Source: Flavobacterium sp. N2038 (GTDB lineage Bacteria > Bacteroidota > Bacteroidia > Flavobacteriales > Flavobacteriaceae). From it: a stretch of 64,000 nt of DNA. The notes beneath the pieces were generated by a model, which ran no database searches, had not been told where the DNA came from, and was given only the letters and a program-made list of their open reading frames with translations. Of this stretch, positions 25,745 through 33,559 are shown one piece after another. The stretch spans positions 4,154,001-4,218,000 of the forward strand of contig NZ_CP110001.1 of assembly GCF_025947185.1 (NCBI RefSeq), written 5' to 3'. The stretch's first letter is position 1; the number at the start of each line of letters is the position of its first letter. A program made the position numbers and the translations under genes.

Positions 25745-26518
25745 TTACGTATTAGAAGTATTATTCTTAATCTCTCTAACTTCTCTTTTCAATTCTAAAA
25801 GCAAATCTTTCATTGCTCCGGTTTCCGTCATTTCTTGTTTTTTATCTGAACGGCCAATGTTGCATTCATATTCCCAAATCTCCAAAATATCAGACGCTTT
25901 CACTTCATAATTCGGATAAAAACTATTATCTGATTCCAAAACCAAAGCGTTCTTTTTATTTTTATTAAGACGTTTATAAACCATTCCTTCATTTTTAGTA
26001 ATCAGAATATAGGTTTTGCCGTCCATCACCTCTCCTAGCTTTTCGACATAACGACCAATAATAATAGAACCAGCTTCGTGTGGTGGCATCGAATCACCTT
26101 CAACGGGAAATCCGCGGTGTTTTCCAGGTCCTAAAAAAGGAAGTGTAATCTGCTGTAAACTTTCGATATATTCCGGATCAGCATATCCGTTTAGATAACC
26201 TGCTTTTGCTTTTTGAGATACAATTTCGATATAATTTTCTCCAAAACTATCCACTTGAATTGGTAAAATAAGTCGATTGCCTTCCAGTTTTATCAAATTT
26301 TGGACATCAATTTTGCGTATATCGACAGATAATATCAAATCAATACTCATATGAAAATACAAGGCAATCTTCTTTAAAATATCATACGGAGCTTCTGAAG
26401 TTCCATCTTCGTATTTTACATATCTTCCTCTTGTAATGCTAAGGTTTTCGGCTAATTTCTCTTGTGATATTTTATGCTTAACCCTTAACGCTCTGATGTT
26501 GTCTGAAAATAAGGACAT
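25745..26518 (-). CDS. LexA/CI-like S24 repressor of the mutagenesis cassette
   Basis: A 257-residue protein: Cro/C1 HTH (residues 6-62), linker, then an S24 peptidase domain. The LexA-type cleavage bond Ala106-Gly107 lies in AKAGYLNGY, the nucleophile is Ser143 in VEGDSMPP and the lysine is Lys182 in GMVYKRL. All parts needed for RecA-stimulated self-cleavage are present. I use the ATG at 26518; the longer frame to 26677 would run through the promoter and into the divergent gene. It faces the polymerase operon, with a palindrome between them, so it probably represses both sides until DNA damage. Confidence 0.9.
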   Translation of the reverse strand: MSLFSDNIRALRVKHKISQEKLAENLSITRGRYVKYEDGTSEAPYDILKKIALYFHMSIDLILSVDIRKIDVQNLIKLEGNRLILPIQVDSFGENYIEIVSQKAKAGYLNGYADPEYIESLQQITLPFLGPGKHRGFPVEGDSMPPHEAGSIIIGRYVEKLGEVMDGKTYILITKNEGMVYKRLNKNKKNALVLESDNSFYPNYEVKASDILEIWEYECNIGRSDKKQEMTETGAMKDLLLELKREVREIKNNTSNT

Positions 26519-26535
26519 AATTAATTTGTTATAAT

Positions 26536-26568
26536 TTAGAACATCAAATATATAAAAAAATGTTCTAA
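26536..26568. promoter_or_regulatory. Operator palindrome and divergent promoters of the mutagenesis cassette
   Basis: Arms TTAGAACAT (26536-26544) and ATGTTCTAA (26560-26568) around 15 bases. The minus-strand -7 box TATATTTG (26545-26552) for the repressor lies inside. The plus-strand -7 box TAATTTTG (26576-26583) for the polymerase gene lies 8 bases beyond. The AGAAC/GTTCT half-sites recall SOS boxes. Neither -33 TTG is clear. Confidence 0.7.
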
Positions 26569-26605
26569 TCTGTGCTAATTTTGTTTCATACAAAAACAAA
26601 GGAAA

Positions 26606-27787
26606 ATGGCAAGGGCAATTGTACATATGGATCTGGATACCTTTTTTGTATCCTGTGAGCGACTCACAAATTCGCAACTCGAGGGAATTCCGCTTATTAT
26701 TGGCGGTGGCGATCGTGGTGTTGTTGCATCTTGTTCATACGAAGCCCGTCGTTTTGGCGTTCGTTCTGCCATGCCAATTCGTATGGCAATGAAACTTTGT
26801 CCAGACGCAAAAATCATGAAAGGTGATATCGAATTATATTCCCGATTATCTCATGATGTTACCGAAATTCTTCAGGAAAAAGCACCTGTTTTGGAAAAAG
26901 CAAGCATTGATGAATTTTATCTTGATATTACCGGAATGGACCGTTTTCACGGAAGTTATAAATGGACAGATGAGTTGGCACAAAAAGTAATTAAAGAAAC
27001 GGGGCTACCTATTAGTTTTTCTTTGTCCATCAATAAAACCGTTTCTAAAATTGCAACAGGCGAAGGCAAACCAAGAGGAAATCTTGAGATTCCGGAACAG
27101 GACGTTCAGGCATTTTTGAATCCGTTATCAATTCAGAAAATCCCAATGGTAGGAACGGTAACATTTCAGCTTTTATCCCGAATTGGTGTTCGCACCATTC
27201 AGACTTTATCTGAAATGCCTGCCGAAGTTTTGCAACAAATGATTGGTAAAAATGGTCTCGATATCTGGAAAAAAGCCCATGGAATTGACCATACACCTGT
27301 AGAACCTTATAACGAGAGAAAATCTATTTCGACTGAACATACTTTTACTCAGGATACAATCGATATTATAAAGCTAAAAAGAATCCTTCAGGGAATGGTG
27401 GAAAAACTGGCATTTCAATTAAGATCTGAACAATGGCTAACCTCAACAATTACAGTAAAAATTCGTTATGCCAATTTTGATACTGAGACCAAGCAATCCA
27501 AAATCGCTTATACATCAGCAGATCATATTCTGAACAAAAATGCAGCCGATTTATTCGATAAAGTATATCAGCGTCGTATGCGTCTTCGCTTAATTGGTGT
27601 TCGTTTCAGCGGATTGGTGCGCGGAACCTATCAAATCAATCTTTTTGAAGATACTCAGGAAATGCTTTCACTATATGCCGCTATGGATAAAATGAAAAGC
27701 CGTTATGGTTTTGATGCCGTAATGCGCTGTGCAGGAGCTTCTATTAAACCGAATACGAAAGACGAAATTTTAAAACGCATCAAATAA
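26606..27787 (+). CDS. dinB: Y-family DNA polymerase (Pol IV-like)
   Basis: A 393-residue translesion polymerase. Catalytic carboxylates are present in HMDLDTFF (start) and KASIDEFYLD (near residue 105), so it is active in principle, unlike ImuB proteins. Helix-hairpin-helix and little-finger regions follow. Near the C-terminus QINLF fits a beta-clamp binding motif. It is the first gene of the operon, one base before the DnaE2-like gene. It would copy past lesions under control of the divergent repressor. Confidence 0.93.
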   Translation: MARAIVHMDLDTFFVSCERLTNSQLEGIPLIIGGGDRGVVASCSYEARRFGVRSAMPIRMAMKLCPDAKIMKGDIELYSRLSHDVTEILQEKAPVLEKASIDEFYLDITGMDRFHGSYKWTDELAQKVIKETGLPISFSLSINKTVSKIATGEGKPRGNLEIPEQDVQAFLNPLSIQKIPMVGTVTFQLLSRIGVRTIQTLSEMPAEVLQQMIGKNGLDIWKKAHGIDHTPVEPYNERKSISTEHTFTQDTIDIIKLKRILQGMVEKLAFQLRSEQWLTSTITVKIRYANFDTETKQSKIAYTSADHILNKNAADLFDKVYQRRMRLRLIGVRFSGLVRGTYQINLFEDTQEMLSLYAAMDKMKSRYGFDAVMRCAGASIKPNTKDEILKRIK

Positions 27788-27788
27788 C

Positions 27789-30700
27789 ATGTATCTTAAT
27801 TGTCATTCTTTTCATTCTTTGCGTTACGGCACAATTTCTCTTGATAAACTTATCGGGCAAGCTGTTTCTTGTGGCGTAAAAGCAATGGCTCTAACAGATA
27901 TTAATACTGTAACAGGAATTTATGATTTTATAAGAGAATGTGAGAAAAACGAAATAAAGCCTCTTGTTGGAATGGAATTTCGTTGTAATCATCAATTGCG
28001 CTATATTGGATTGGCAAAAAATGCTGAAGGTTTAGCCGAAATGAATCGTTTTTTAACGGACCATAATTTCAGTGGAGAAGCTTTGCCTTTTCGTGCTCCT
28101 GAATTTAAATCAACTTTTGTTATTTATACTTTAGAAAATGCTCCTGAAAAACTACATGAAAATGAATTTATCGGAGTTCGTCCTCAAGAAGTTTCAGGTC
28201 TTCTAACTTCAAAACATAAAAATAAAATCTCTAAAATGGTTGTTTTGCAACCTGTGACTTTTACCAATAAAACAGAATACAATCTGCATAAAATTCTTCG
28301 GGCAATTGATACCAATATTATTTTATCAAAACTTACTGAATCTGATTATTGCAAAACTTCAGATATCATGCAGCCTGTAGAATCTCTTTTGCCATTCTAC
28401 GAAAATTACCCCGAAATTGTATTAAACACACAACGTATTATTGATGATTGTAATTTTCAATATGAATTTGGTGTTCCAAGAAATAAAAAATTTTATACTG
28501 AAAACCGTCAGAGCGACATAAAAAAACTAACCGAATTGGCAATGGAAGGTTTTGAATGGCGTTATGGAAAAGAAAACACAATTGCCAGAAGACGCGTCGA
28601 AAAAGAATTAAAAGTTATTGATGAACTGGAATTCAGTGGTTATTTTTTAATTACCTGGGATATCATTCAATTCAGCAACAGCCAGGGATTTATGCACATT
28701 GGACGCGGAAGCGGCGCCAACAGCATTATAGCCTACTGTCTCGGCATTACAGATATATGTCCGATCGAACTTGATCTGTATTTTGAGCGTTTTTTAAACC
28801 TCAACCGAAAAAGCCCTCCCGATTTTGATATTGACTGGAGCTGGCAGGAACGTGATATAATCCTGAAATATATATTTAAAAAATACGGTAAAGAACATGT
28901 TGCCTTTTGTGGCACCAATGTCGAATTTAAATACCGGTCTATTTTCAGGGAAGTTGGAAAAGTTTTTGGTCTTCCGAAAGAAGAACTCGATATGCTGGCT
29001 AAAAATCCTATGACATTGCATGAAACAAACAAAATTGTAAAACTGGTTCAGCAATACGGAATGTTACTCGAAAAATACCCCAATCAACGCAGCATGCATT
29101 CCTGCGGGATTATTATTTCTGAAGAACCTATTACAAATTATACCCCTCTGGAAATGCCTCCAAAAGGATTTCCGATTGTGCTTTTTGATATGCATATTGC
29201 GGAAGAAATTGGTTTTGAAAAATTTGACATTCTAAGTCAGCGTGGTATTGGCCATATTGACGACAGCGTAAAACTAATTGCCAAAAATCAAGGTATAAAA
29301 GTAGATATTCGAAATACTTCGATTTCTAAAGATGAAACTGTATGCAATGCTTATCTGGCAAAAGGAAATACCATAGGCTGTTTTTATATCGAAAGTCCCG
29401 CTATGCGAGGTTTATTACGCCGACTGAATTGTGATAATTACAAAATTCTGGTTGCCGCATCTTCTATCATCCGTCCCGGCGTTGCACAATCCGGAATGAT
29501 GAAAGAATATATTTTTCGTCATAATAACCCGAATCAATTTGAATATTTTCATGAAGTTTTCAAAGAACAGCTTGGCGAAACTTACGGTATTATGGTATAT
29601 CAGGAAGATGTTATCAAAATCGCTTTGCATTACGGCGGACTTCCTGCGGCTGATGGCGATATTCTGCGTCGCGCTATGTCTGGAAAAGGACGCTCTAAAG
29701 AAGCTTTGCAAAAAGTAAAAGATAATTTCTTTTCCTGCTGTGCACAAAAAGGACATCCCGAAGTTTTGAGTCAGGAAATTTACCGTCAGATTGAATCTTT
29801 TGCAGGATATTCTTTCTGTAAAGCGCACTCGGCTTCATACGCTGTCGAGAGTTATCAGAGTTTATATCTAAAAGTGTATTACCCTGTAGAATTTATGACA
29901 GCGGTAATCAACAATCAGGGTGGTTTTTACAGAACCGAAGTTTATGTACATGAAGCCCGAATGTCTGGTGGCACCATTCATAATCCTTGTGTAAATAAAA
30001 GCGAATATCAAACGACTTTATACGGCACTGATATTTATCTCGGTTTTATGCATTTACAGAGCCTGGAGTCTAAAATTGCTCATTTAATTGAATCTGACAG
30101 GGAAAAAAATGGCGAATATCTTTCTTTAGAAAATTTCATCAATCGTATTCCGATAGGTATTGAAGGCGTAAAAATACTGATTTTCATTGGAGCATTTCGT
30201 TTTACCGGAAAAACCAAAAATCAGCTTTTAGTCATTGCAAGTTTGCTTTTAAACAATTTCAAACCAGAAAACAGAAATCTCATGCTCTTGCAGGAACCTG
30301 TTAAAGAATATAAACTTCCAACTCTGGAGCGTTCGGTTTTTGAAGATGCTTTTGATGAAATTGAACTTTTAAGCTTCCCCGTTTCCTGCAGTGTTTTTGA
30401 TTTATTACAAACCAAACATCGCGGTGATATTATGGCAAAAGACTTAGTAAAATATCATAAAAGACAAATCAGAATGTTGGCGTATTTAATTTCAAGAAAA
30501 CATGTTCCTACTAAAAAAGGAGCAATGTATTTTGGCACCTGGATTGATCACGAGGGGACTTATTTTGATACGGCACATTTTCCGGATAGCCTGGCGCAGT
30601 ACCCTTTTCAGGGTGGAGGCTGTTATCTATTGTTAGGCAATGTCGAAGTCGATTACCACTTCCCTACCATTACGATTAGTAAAATGGCAAAAATGCCTTT

Positions 30701-30842
30701 TATTCCTGATCCTCGATATATGGATGCTAAAGATCAGTATCAAACACAAAATCAGATTAAAGAAGATGTTAGCCTCACACATAGAAAACCGTATCCTTCA
30801 GGACATGAGATTAACATTCCAAGACACCGACTGAAATTTTAA
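27789..30842 (+). CDS. dnaE2: DnaE2-like DNA polymerase III alpha subunit
   Basis: A 1017-residue C-family polymerase, shorter than replicative DnaE (about 1160 or more). Order: PHP domain (HSFHS at start), palm with GRGSGANSI and catalytic PDFDID (Asp345, Asp347), third aspartate in EKFDILSQRGIG, fingers with MSGKGRSKEAL, a helix-hairpin-helix region and an OB fold near 890-970. The PHP motif ALTDH is ALTDI here, so the PHP metal site looks degenerate. Encoded with a Y-family polymerase and DNA repair genes, it fits an error-prone DnaE2 role rather than replication. Confidence 0.92.
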   Translation: MYLNCHSFHSLRYGTISLDKLIGQAVSCGVKAMALTDINTVTGIYDFIRECEKNEIKPLVGMEFRCNHQLRYIGLAKNAEGLAEMNRFLTDHNFSGEALPFRAPEFKSTFVIYTLENAPEKLHENEFIGVRPQEVSGLLTSKHKNKISKMVVLQPVTFTNKTEYNLHKILRAIDTNIILSKLTESDYCKTSDIMQPVESLLPFYENYPEIVLNTQRIIDDCNFQYEFGVPRNKKFYTENRQSDIKKLTELAMEGFEWRYGKENTIARRRVEKELKVIDELEFSGYFLITWDIIQFSNSQGFMHIGRGSGANSIIAYCLGITDICPIELDLYFERFLNLNRKSPPDFDIDWSWQERDIILKYIFKKYGKEHVAFCGTNVEFKYRSIFREVGKVFGLPKEELDMLAKNPMTLHETNKIVKLVQQYGMLLEKYPNQRSMHSCGIIISEEPITNYTPLEMPPKGFPIVLFDMHIAEEIGFEKFDILSQRGIGHIDDSVKLIAKNQGIKVDIRNTSISKDETVCNAYLAKGNTIGCFYIESPAMRGLLRRLNCDNYKILVAASSIIRPGVAQSGMMKEYIFRHNNPNQFEYFHEVFKEQLGETYGIMVYQEDVIKIALHYGGLPAADGDILRRAMSGKGRSKEALQKVKDNFFSCCAQKGHPEVLSQEIYRQIESFAGYSFCKAHSASYAVESYQSLYLKVYYPVEFMTAVINNQGGFYRTEVYVHEARMSGGTIHNPCVNKSEYQTTLYGTDIYLGFMHLQSLESKIAHLIESDREKNGEYLSLENFINRIPIGIEGVKILIFIGAFRFTGKTKNQLLVIASLLLNNFKPENRNLMLLQEPVKEYKLPTLERSVFEDAFDEIELLSFPVSCSVFDLLQTKHRGDIMAKDLVKYHKRQIRMLAYLISRKHVPTKKGAMYFGTWIDHEGTYFDTAHFPDSLAQYPFQGGGCYLLLGNVEVDYHFPTITISKMAKMPFIPDPRYMDAKDQYQTQNQIKEDVSLTHRKPYPSGHEINIPRHRLKF

Positions 30843-30876
30843 ACAACAGAAACAGAACATTTTACGTTATATACAA

Positions 30877-32265
30877 ATGAAGAATCAGGAATATGCCATA
30901 GTCGATATCGAAACCACAGGTGGTAATGCCAGTGGAAGCCGTATTACAGAAATTGCCATTATCATTCATGACGGTACAAATGTTCTGGATCGTTATGAAA
31001 CACTTGTTAATCCACAGCAGGAGATACCACCTTCTATTTTTGGATTAACAGGAATTAATAACGAAATGGTTGCTAATGCACCAATCTTTGATGATATTTC
31101 AGAAAAAGTTTTAGAAATGCTCACAGATCGTATTTTCGTGGCGCACAATGTCAACTTCGATTATTCATTTATACATCATCAACTGGAACAAGCGGGTTTT
31201 AAATGGACAGCGAGAAAATTGTGTACTGTTCGTGCTGCTCGAAAAATCAAGCCGGGATTAGGTTCATACAGTTTAGGAAATCTGTGTAATTCTTTGAATA
31301 TATCTTTAGAAAACAGACACCGTGCAGGTGGAGATGCCGATGCTACTGCCCTTTTATTTTCTCTTTTACTCGAATGGGACGATGCCGGAGAAATTGATAA
31401 AATGATAAAAAAAACGGCTCAGGATCAACGATTGCCTCCAAATCTTCCGCCAGATGATTTTAATAATTTACCTGATAAACCCGGAGTCTATTATTTTTAT
31501 AATCAGGCAAAAAAAGTGATTTATGTTGGAAAAGCCATTAATCTAAAAAAACGGGTTACATCACATTTTACGGGTAATAATATTAATCCGCAAAGACAAC
31601 ATTTTTTACGCGATATCTACGGAATCACTTTCGAAGTCTGTGCAACCGAATTGATGGCGCTTCTTTTAGAATGTACCGAAATCAAAAAACTGTGGCCAAC
31701 TTATAACAGAGCTTTAAAACGTTTTGAAGCCAAATTTGGTATTTATCAATACGAAGCCCGAAATGGTTACAAATATTTGGCAATCGGAAAAGTGAGTAAA
31801 TTTCAAATCTGTATTCATGAGTTTAATAGCCAATACGATGGCATCAATTTATTGAGAAGTCTGGCAGTACAGTTCGAAATCGATCATCGCTTTTGTAAAT
31901 ACTCAAGACCTGAAGAAGGAGATTTTTTTCAAAATAATGAAATAAAAGATTTGCCAGATGTTTTGCTTCACAATGAACAAGTTGACAATGCAATAGATTT
32001 TTTATTAAATAACCGCCCGAGTTTTGCCATAATTGATAAAGGAAGATCTTCAGATGAACGAAGCTGTATCTGGATTGAAAACGGCCATTTTCATGGAATG
32101 GGTTATATTCCGAAAGATGTTGCCATTCATGATCCCGAAGATGTAAAAAGTTATGTTACACCTTATAAAAGCAATCAATATATTGAACATTTAATTTTTG
32201 CTTACGCTGAAAAACATCCGGGTAAAGTATTTTTTAACAAACAATTTTTAAGCAAAGCTTCCTAA
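30877..32265 (+). CDS. DnaQ-like exonuclease fused to GIY-YIG nuclease
   Basis: A 462-residue fusion. Residues 1-170 form a DEDDh exonuclease: VDIETTGG (first Asp/Glu), HNVNFDYSF and HRAGGDADAT (last His/Asp). Residues about 196-280 are a GIY-YIG endonuclease of the UvrC/Cho type: KPGVYYFYNQ, VIYVGKAINLKKRV. The rest is unassigned. Such fusions are known, for example in actinobacteria. It follows the DnaE2-like gene by 34 bases, so it may proofread or process damage with it. Confidence 0.9.
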   Translation: MKNQEYAIVDIETTGGNASGSRITEIAIIIHDGTNVLDRYETLVNPQQEIPPSIFGLTGINNEMVANAPIFDDISEKVLEMLTDRIFVAHNVNFDYSFIHHQLEQAGFKWTARKLCTVRAARKIKPGLGSYSLGNLCNSLNISLENRHRAGGDADATALLFSLLLEWDDAGEIDKMIKKTAQDQRLPPNLPPDDFNNLPDKPGVYYFYNQAKKVIYVGKAINLKKRVTSHFTGNNINPQRQHFLRDIYGITFEVCATELMALLLECTEIKKLWPTYNRALKRFEAKFGIYQYEARNGYKYLAIGKVSKFQICIHEFNSQYDGINLLRSLAVQFEIDHRFCKYSRPEEGDFFQNNEIKDLPDVLLHNEQVDNAIDFLLNNRPSFAIIDKGRSSDERSCIWIENGHFHGMGYIPKDVAIHDPEDVKSYVTPYKSNQYIEHLIFAYAEKHPGKVFFNKQFLSKAS

Positions 32266-32311
32266 ACCAAATAAAATATAAAATAGAGCTGTAAAACTAA
32301 CATAATGAATT

Positions 32312-32938
32312 ATGACACTATTTAGCGATACCGAATTATTTACCCCAGGCAGCAGTGGTAAAATTATATACGATTTGCCTGATTGCGAATTAATTTTAAT
32401 CGATAATTTTTTTAGCAAAGAAGAATCTGATCGTTTTTACGAAAAATTACTTCATCAGACCAAATGGAGAGAATACGAAATGGAAATGTTTGATAAAATC
32501 GTTACAGCTCCAAGAATGATTTCCTGGTACGAAGACAAAGACAATCCCGGTGCCGATCAAAAAGGTCCCGACTGGACGTACGATTTATTAACTATTCGAG
32601 GGCGCGTAGAAAAAGAAACAGAAGTAGATTTTAATAGTCTGTTGTTAAATTTATACCGAAACGGCAATGATAGCGTCGCCTGGCATAGCGATAAAGAACA
32701 CAATTCAGTACCTAACCCCATTATTGCTTCTGTAACTTTTGGCGAGACCAGAATGTTCAGACTCCGACATAAATTCAGGAAAGATATTCCTCAGGTTGAG
32801 ATTCCGCTGCATCATGGTTCTTTTCTATTAATGGCTGGAACAACCAATAGTTTTTGGCAGCATCAGGTTCCGAAAACAACACGAGATGTTTTACCAAGGA
32901 TCAATCTTACCTTTAGAAGAACTAACCGAAATCTTTGA
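32312..32938 (+). CDS. alkB: AlkB-type 2-oxoglutarate/Fe(II) dioxygenase
   Basis: A 208-residue AlkB family protein that oxidatively removes alkyl groups from DNA bases. Iron ligands: WHSDKE (His and Asp) and FWQHQVPK (His). 2-oxoglutarate binding: arginines in PRINLTFRRT. YRNGNDSVAWHSD is typical of AlkB/ALKBH2-3. Last gene of the cassette, 46 bases after the nuclease gene; co-expression with translesion polymerases is likely. Confidence 0.92.
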   Translation: MTLFSDTELFTPGSSGKIIYDLPDCELILIDNFFSKEESDRFYEKLLHQTKWREYEMEMFDKIVTAPRMISWYEDKDNPGADQKGPDWTYDLLTIRGRVEKETEVDFNSLLLNLYRNGNDSVAWHSDKEHNSVPNPIIASVTFGETRMFRLRHKFRKDIPQVEIPLHHGSFLLMAGTTNSFWQHQVPKTTRDVLPRINLTFRRTNRNL

Positions 32939-33097: not shown

Positions 33098-33559
33098 ATG
33101 GCTTATTCTAACAATGATTTATCGCGTTTCCTGGATGCGCAGAACAAACTTTATCTTACCGCTCTTTCTGAAATCAGCAAGGGAAAAAAAGAAACACACT
33201 GGATGTGGTTCATTTTTCCACAAATAAAAGGGTTAGGTAAAAGCGATACAGCAAATCTTTATGCGATTGCCGATTTAAAAGAAGCAACTGAGTTTTTAGA
33301 ACATCCGATATTAGGAAAACATCTAATTGAAATTTCAGAACTTTTATTAACCTTCAAAAGAAAATCAGCTGATGGAATTTTAGGAGACCTGGATGCACGC
33401 AAATTGCGTTCCTCAATGACTCTTTTTTCGATGGTTGAGAACACCAATCCTGTATTTCAGGAAATACTGGACGCATTCTTTTCTGGAGAATCAGATCCTC
33501 TTACTTTGTCTATTATTAATTCAACAATAAAATTATCTGCTGAACCTGTTATTATATAA
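33098..33559 (+). CDS. DUF1810 family protein
   Basis: A 153-residue soluble protein. DLSRFLDAQNKLYLTALSEI and ETHWMWFIFPQIKGLG are the hallmark blocks of DUF1810, a calpastatin-like family of unknown function. LDARKLRSSMTLFS and a C-terminal DPLTLSIIN follow. Length is typical. The ATG at 33098 is chosen because the longer frame begins inside the -7 box. A strong terminator follows. Confidence 0.9.
   Translation: MAYSNNDLSRFLDAQNKLYLTALSEISKGKKETHWMWFIFPQIKGLGKSDTANLYAIADLKEATEFLEHPILGKHLIEISELLLTFKRKSADGILGDLDARKLRSSMTLFSMVENTNPVFQEILDAFFSGESDPLTLSIINSTIKLSAEPVII

Follow-up and report, generated by a model that had tools for sequence, protein, structure and literature searches.

In many bacteria, imuA-imuB-dnaE2 is placed under an S24 repressor. 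We present here a related five-gene cassette of Flavobacterium sp. N2038, in which a putative self-cleaving S24 repressor faces a run of polY, dnaE, exo and alkB genes; it lies in a window of 64,000 nucleotides (bases 4154001-4218000 of contig NZ_CP110001.1, a single-contig genome of 4.67 Mb). We consider it, with a probability of about 0.7, to be the main SOS locus of a Flavobacterium with a repressor of the F. johnsoniae type, regulating the operon together with uvrA, parE, recA and probably dinB. SOS control in Bacteroidetes was first described in 2021 (Sanchez-Osuna et al., PMC8565304), and the regulons predicted there for the non-canonical LexA family include recA, parCE, dinB and a GIY-YIG exonuclease. 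The E. anophelis member, which binds TTAC-AAATT-GTAA, faces the gene of an error-prone polymerase, and SOS control in Flavobacteriaceae is assigned to regulators of the GGA-N5-TCC motif (PMC8565304). The main text of that paper, its supplements being outside this scope, makes no mention of Flavobacterium, uvrA or AlkB.

The polymerases have a described counterpart in the Bacteroidetes DnaE2B-PolY-RecA mutasome, where a RecA-binding tail of PolY stands in for ImuA (PMC6511836, PMC12926913). Fusions of an exonuclease with a Cho-type GIY-YIG domain have been proposed to incise and digest through the lesion (PMC1564403), ImuC and DinB guard pseudomonads against alkylation damage (PMC5261740), and DnaE2 of Caulobacter fills excision-repair gaps (PMC8102061). 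Among the papers listed from the open-licence literature, judged by titles and the openings of abstracts (subscription papers and supplements being outside this scope), we found neither a Flavobacterium SOS regulon nor an AlkB gene in a PolY-DnaE2 operon.

Organization of the cassette and its repressor

The five genes, their Pfam domains and the gaps of 1, 34 and 46 bases within the operon are as a preliminary description of this DNA had given them. Operators are scored throughout by matches to the 14 specified positions of TTGTTAY-N5-RTAACAA, and the two -7 elements were recognized by TAnnTTTG, which we take to be the Bacteroidetes -7 consensus. The features are as follows.

25745..26518, minus strand: repressor with CI-type helix-turn-helix (HTH) and S24 peptidase domains, 257 aa (Pfam, residue check)
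26526..26544, no strand: operator O1, TTGTTATAATTTAGAACAT, 12/14 specified positions, at the presumed repressor transcript start
26545..26552, minus strand: TATATTTG, presumed repressor promoter, matching the -7 consensus
26560..26578, no strand: operator O2, ATGTTCTAATCTGTGCTAA, 9/14, overlapping the presumed polY -7 element
26576..26583, plus strand: TAATTTTG, presumed polY -7 element, from sequence
26606..27787, plus strand: Y-family polymerase PolY (IMS, IMS_C), 393 aa (Pfam, residue check)
27789..30842, plus strand: DnaE-type C-family polymerase, 1017 aa (Pfam, residue check)
30877..32265, plus strand: DEDDh exonuclease fused to a UvrC/Cho-type GIY-YIG domain, 462 aa (Pfam, residue check)
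32312..32938, plus strand: AlkB-type 2OG-Fe(II) dioxygenase, 208 aa (Pfam, residue check)

The repressor open reading frame listed at 25745-26677 opens at an upstream TTG; the ATG at 26518 gives the best reading, and in the resulting 257-aa frame the numbering proposed for the cleavage bond (Ala106-Gly107) and the catalytic dyad (Ser143, Lys182) is exact. Pfam assigns HTH_19/HTH_3 and Peptidase_S24 domains, and a search against solved structures gave two HTH matches only. For comparison we used 160 loci, 156 of them distinct (80 PolY2-type places from genomes of the order plus the best 80 of 495 named loci); residue counts include the 4 duplicates. Gly107, Ser143 and Lys182 are invariant in the 131 complete repressor copies, and the scissile Ala106 is kept in 106/131. 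The remaining 25/131 copies have Met at this position and all come from one other family (within loci L059-L084). Residues 30-34 (RGRYV) would sit where the recognition helix is expected. The proposal of an SOS-type lesion-bypass cassette under an S24 repressor that has the self-cleavage residues is supported.

Judged by its domains, residues, operator and additional sites, the repressor appears to fit the Bacteroidetes non-canonical LexA family as presented in the main text of PMC8565304. The two have in common the CI-type HTH with an S24 domain, the Ala-Gly bond and the Ser-Lys dyad, a palindromic dyad-N5-dyad operator in the repressor's own promoter (imperfect in the window copy), and sites at other core SOS genes (here uvrA, parE and recA, with a weak one at dinB). 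Unlike the published cases, the operator here reads TTAT-AATTT-AGAA and two sites are present, 34 bp apart. The genome holds one further S24 protein, adjoining a RadC-domain gene, for which Pfam gave no HTH match.

Operators and candidate target genes

A divergent gap of 87 bases separates the repressor from polY. Aligning such gaps across loci revealed O1, a 15-bp palindrome adjoining the repressor start, and a weaker O2 about 33-34 bp off (34 bp between centres in the window); the operators overlap both presumed -7 elements. When the count is confined to distinct loci at or above 80% PolY identity, O1 scores at least 12/14 in 57/57 with a repressor at least 91% identical, in 26/28 with a repressor 60-90% identical and in 5/5 lacking a repressor; shuffled controls reached 12 in 1/900. 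A perfect 9-bp outer palindrome, TTAGAACAT-N15-ATGTTCTAA, was rejected as an operator or private site because the gap comparison shows its two arms to belong to different operators, one being the right half of O1 and the other the left half of O2. A sigma-70 promoter scan was uninformative (28 sites vs 29.7 in shuffles).

The genome was searched with O1, and we inspected both matches with two mismatches and 5 of the 54 with three, the latter picked as palindromic-looking. The former two lie upstream of recA and of a gene for a small secreted-looking protein. Three of the five (L225, L226, L227) are inside genes and were set aside; the other two, near-perfect palindromes despite their three mismatches, lie upstream of uvrA and of a topoisomerase B subunit gene. 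Family scores fail to split ParE from GyrB for this subunit, and it is named parE here because a topoisomerase A-subunit gene lies downstream on the same strand, two small genes on, an arrangement that matches the parCE member of the published regulons (PMC8565304).

Since these candidates had been picked after their neighbours were seen, they were tested in other genomes. In all nine genomes at or above 91% repressor identity, the uvrA site scores at least 12/14 at -84/-85 and the parE site at least 13/14 at -82 to -85, vs at most 10 and 11, respectively, in 13 others (7 with a repressor 78-82% identical and 6 without a repressor). A dinB site of at least 12/14 was found in 6/9 genomes of the first group vs 0/12 others (the promoter of G198 was left out of this set). 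At recA, 4/4 tested genomes of 98% or higher repressor identity share an identical 19-mer, each at a different distance, and it is present in 0/26 others; 30 of 41 places were covered and 11 left out, and the promoter of L281 has only 68 bases. The site of the small protein scores at least 11/14 in 5/6 orthologue promoters (6 of 7 scored; G176 was left out by a filter). Regarding background, 4/547 promoters of neighbouring genes in the clade loci reach 12 and none reaches 13, a count that includes orthologues and is not independent, and 0/34 promoters in the window exceed 11. Invariant columns make up 15/19 of the uvrA site vs 54/131 outside, and 16/19 of the parE site vs 74/131 outside. On the distribution of these sites, the cassette repressor would most likely be a chromosomal SOS repressor here, and that of the more diverged relatives looks cassette-local.

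The small secreted-looking protein (L205, 988-1434) gave no family match. Its site, at 1128780 of the genome, is of the O1 type and lies 66 bases before the start; among the matches listed, the 6/21 genomes with an orthologue all have 91% or higher repressor identity.

Enzymes of the operon

PolY keeps its catalytic Asp/Glu residues (D9, D11, D102, E103) and bears a QINLF clamp motif at residues 343-347, both as previously proposed. D9, D102 and E103 are kept in 160/160 loci, D11 in 148 (Asn in 12), and the Q and F of the clamp motif in all 160. Residues 352-380 of its tail align with residues 8-36 of the organism's own RecA, with 4/2000 shuffled tails equally good. Among the matches listed, the nearest named relatives of PolY belong to Flavobacterium. 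The DnaE polymerase retains its aspartates D345, D347 and D480 in 150/150 complete copies. Its PHP nuclease looks dead, because two positions that we take to be metal ligands are occupied by Asn (N4, 145/150 copies) and Ile (I38, 147/150). From its size, its degraded PHP site and its neighbour we infer that it is DnaE2B-like.

In the nuclease fusion, exonuclease residues are kept in 67/68 complete copies and GIY-YIG residues in 68/68. The AlkB-type protein of the window has H125, D127, H184, R196 and R202, and AlkB residues are kept in 76/76 complete copies; for all three domains the residues are those we presume to be functional. The C-terminal 180 residues of the fusion have no domain assignment, and its AlphaFold model (mean predicted local distance difference test score, pLDDT, of 50) was not used. 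PADLOC matches, all of them partial domain matches, were set aside.

The polymerase pair seems to fit the DnaE2B-PolY-RecA mutasome, as far as the available text of PMC6511836 and PMC12926913 describes it. Common to both are two adjoining, apparently active polymerases, a RecA-like PolY tail and the lack of ImuA and ImuB in the cassette. The gene run differs in holding the nuclease fusion and AlkB (and XthA in relatives); the words GIY-YIG and AlkB are absent from the available text of PMC12926913, as is GIY-YIG from that of PMC6511836. Genome-wide there are two DnaE-type polymerases, two Y-family polymerases (the cassette PolY and DinB) and one RecA-family match, no dedicated ImuA model having been run at this scale. 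Fusions reported in PMC1564403 likewise have their exonuclease ahead of a UvrC/Cho-like GIY-YIG domain and share the proposed incision-and-digestion role; the present one differs in being encoded in an SOS polymerase operon and in its unassigned C-terminus.

The preliminary description had drawn a parallel with imuA-imuB-dnaE2, and this holds for the Y-family protein with a clamp motif and the DnaE2-like polymerase. The differences it listed also hold, as PolY keeps catalytic residues, in contrast to the catalytically dead ImuB, and the five genes carry domains other than ImuA. Yet the regulator family, as well as an active PolY with DnaE2 and no ImuA, had already been published for Bacteroidetes.

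Gene order among relatives

A PolY search of 196 genomes of the order matched 89 at E 1e-50, DinB proteins included, and 80 PolY2-type places were taken, one full-length place (G130) and two fragments (G187) being omitted. Counts of missing genes are upper limits, with several loci ending at contig ends. DnaE lies near PolY on the same strand in 147/156 distinct loci. The repressor is upstream of PolY on the opposite strand in 117/156 and on the same strand in 12, and none is found within 8 kb in 27. All five genes in order were found in 56/156, all of the Flavobacterium type, and 23 of these 56 also contain an XthA-type gene; 37/156 present only repressor, PolY and DnaE. On the repressor side, the nuclease is placed in 3 loci and AlkB in 4. 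Because 54 of the best 80 named loci hold all five genes in the same order, the arrangement is not due to chance. The five-gene linkage, for which a survey had been proposed, is within the one order surveyed a Flavobacterium-type trait. The wider core of the order is PolY-DnaE, usually with a divergent repressor, and nuclease, AlkB and XthA are recurrent optional additions to the core of repressor, PolY and DnaE.

The XthA-type exodeoxyribonuclease III gene, absent from the window, is found beside alkB in L123 (14823-15599) and 23 other loci, the family assignment being based on one member tested. In 23 loci it stands between the nuclease fusion and alkB, and L142 has it without the nuclease. 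A DUF1810 protein gene (33098-33559 in the window, after a 159-base gap) is located near alkB in 53/54 five-gene named loci.

Target change, paralogous cassettes and repressor-less copies

Repressor residues 30-34 and the O1 half-site co-vary among 105 distinct divergent loci (raw counts, with relatedness not removed). RGRYV is paired with GTTAY in 75/75 loci, RVRY with GATAC in 6/6, RDRY with GGGAC in 4/4, RGRYG or RGRYS with GCTAT in 4/4, and RSRYV with GTTAY in 5/8; another 5/105 loci carry other helix sequences. Residues 31 and 34 shift along with the half-site. Where one genome outside the genus bears two repressor-linked cassettes, their O1 sites differ in 5/5 cases (G031, G120, G159, G080, G019); of two such genomes within the genus, the sites differ in G128 and hardly in G114. 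Paralogues with diverged palindromes have already been reported for Weeksellaceae (PMC8565304).

Promoters were inspected in 10 of the 27 loci without a nearby repressor. Seven are Flavobacterium-type polY-dnaE copies (L050, L053, L054, L055, L056, L058, L202), and all seven bear O1 (12 or 13) at -79 to -83 and, at -46 to -49, a further site of 11 or 12; the three from other genera score at most 10. Relaxase and coupling protein genes lie near L053, the gene run of which is, by eye, the same as that of L055, while L050 has TraM and DUF4138 protein genes nearby and an SRAP gene behind dnaE. The seven copies come from six assemblies; the four checked (G018, G158, G124, PS02336; G148 and G002 were left out) have a repressor-bearing cassette elsewhere.

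Proposed function and alternative explanations

The following mechanism would account for these features. In the undamaged cell the CI-type S24 repressor would occupy both operators, keeping its own gene shut along with the polY-dnaE-exo-alkB operon. Cleavage of the Ala106-Gly107 bond, triggered by RecA filaments, would free the operon and, via O1-type sites, uvrA, parE, recA and probably dinB. PolY could then bind the clamp by its QINLF motif and RecA by its tail, and by analogy with published relatives PolY, the DnaE2-like polymerase and RecA may form a mutasome. The nuclease fusion might cut beside the lesion and trim through it, leaving gaps for the polymerases, and AlkB (with XthA in relatives) would remove alkylated or abasic lesions.

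Several observations weigh against this interpretation. The nine site-bearing genomes, with their closely related repressors, are probably one clade and their counts not independent, so that the regulon result is one evolutionary contrast and not nine. The dinB sites are weak and absent in 3/9 genomes, the recA comparison covers the group at 98% and above without the 91-92% repressor group, and a 13-point match in the recA promoter of L265 (repressor 81%), at -177, differs in sequence and is taken as chance. At uvrA, conservation is about equally high in the site and in the stretch from there to the start codon, so conservation alone is no proof. The best -7-like element lies downstream of the site at both uvrA and parE, where the sites begin 82-85 bases ahead of the start codon, and occlusion is not obvious there. 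A looser motif is not enriched genome-wide (291 matches at up to 2 mismatches vs 336 for the reversed pattern), and its 13 places listed at 0-1 mismatch comprise one at parE, one at the small protein and 11 others, 6 inside genes and 5 upstream of genes; that listing omits the one-mismatch uvrA site (L223) found by direct scan, so absences from it are not informative. To our knowledge, none of those 5 downstream genes is linked to SOS. Finally, O2 of the window scores below most relatives, and RGRYA occurs with three different half-sites in 3 loci.

The preliminary description suggested a self-contained module, whose repressor would govern nothing beyond its own gene and the operon next to it. 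The exact outer palindrome occurs once in the genome, which would agree with a private site, but the conserved sites upstream of uvrA, parE and recA in this genome and its close relatives, along with the weaker ones at dinB, make such a module improbable here; it may hold for the 7 relatives with a 78-82% identical repressor, which lack uvrA and parE sites though their O1 is strong. In all nine genomes with uvrA and parE sites, these start within -82 to -85, and in uvrA a TAACTTTG element follows downstream. Instead of simply repressing the two genes, the repressor protein could therefore activate them or modulate their expression, and activation by non-canonical LexA is left open in PMC8565304; against this, the cassette sites overlap both presumed -7 elements and an upstream promoter at uvrA and parE is possible, and we give this explanation only a slim chance. 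As for the last two genes, they might be bystanders that take no part in mutasome or regulon, since 37/156 distinct loci show the core only and the 34- and 46-base gaps could hold separate promoters. We regard this as rather unlikely, however, in view of the catalytic residues kept in both enzymes, their joining the core on the repressor side in a few loci and the predicted regulation of a GIY-YIG exonuclease (PMC8565304).

The cassette is a well-conserved system made of parts whose kinds have been described; its composition is new, and its regulon is likely lineage-specific. We see about even odds for a further contrast within one genus: the repressor would be cassette-local in some lineages and, in the F. 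johnsoniae type, would act as chromosomal SOS master, a role either acquired or retained; its targets would shift via a few recognition-helix residues, with sister cassettes wired separately; and repressor-less polY-dnaE copies, some beside conjugation genes, would plug into the host SOS switch. The sites tied to one repressor type offer a testable case of SOS regulon gain or loss within a genus, and the pairing of helix and half-site a means to test how S24 repressors switch from one target to another. The matched operators of the repressor-less cassettes hint at a way for mobile DNA to deliver mutagenesis genes that are under host control from the outset, and the operon itself suggests that lesion removal, incision and bypass may be switched on jointly.

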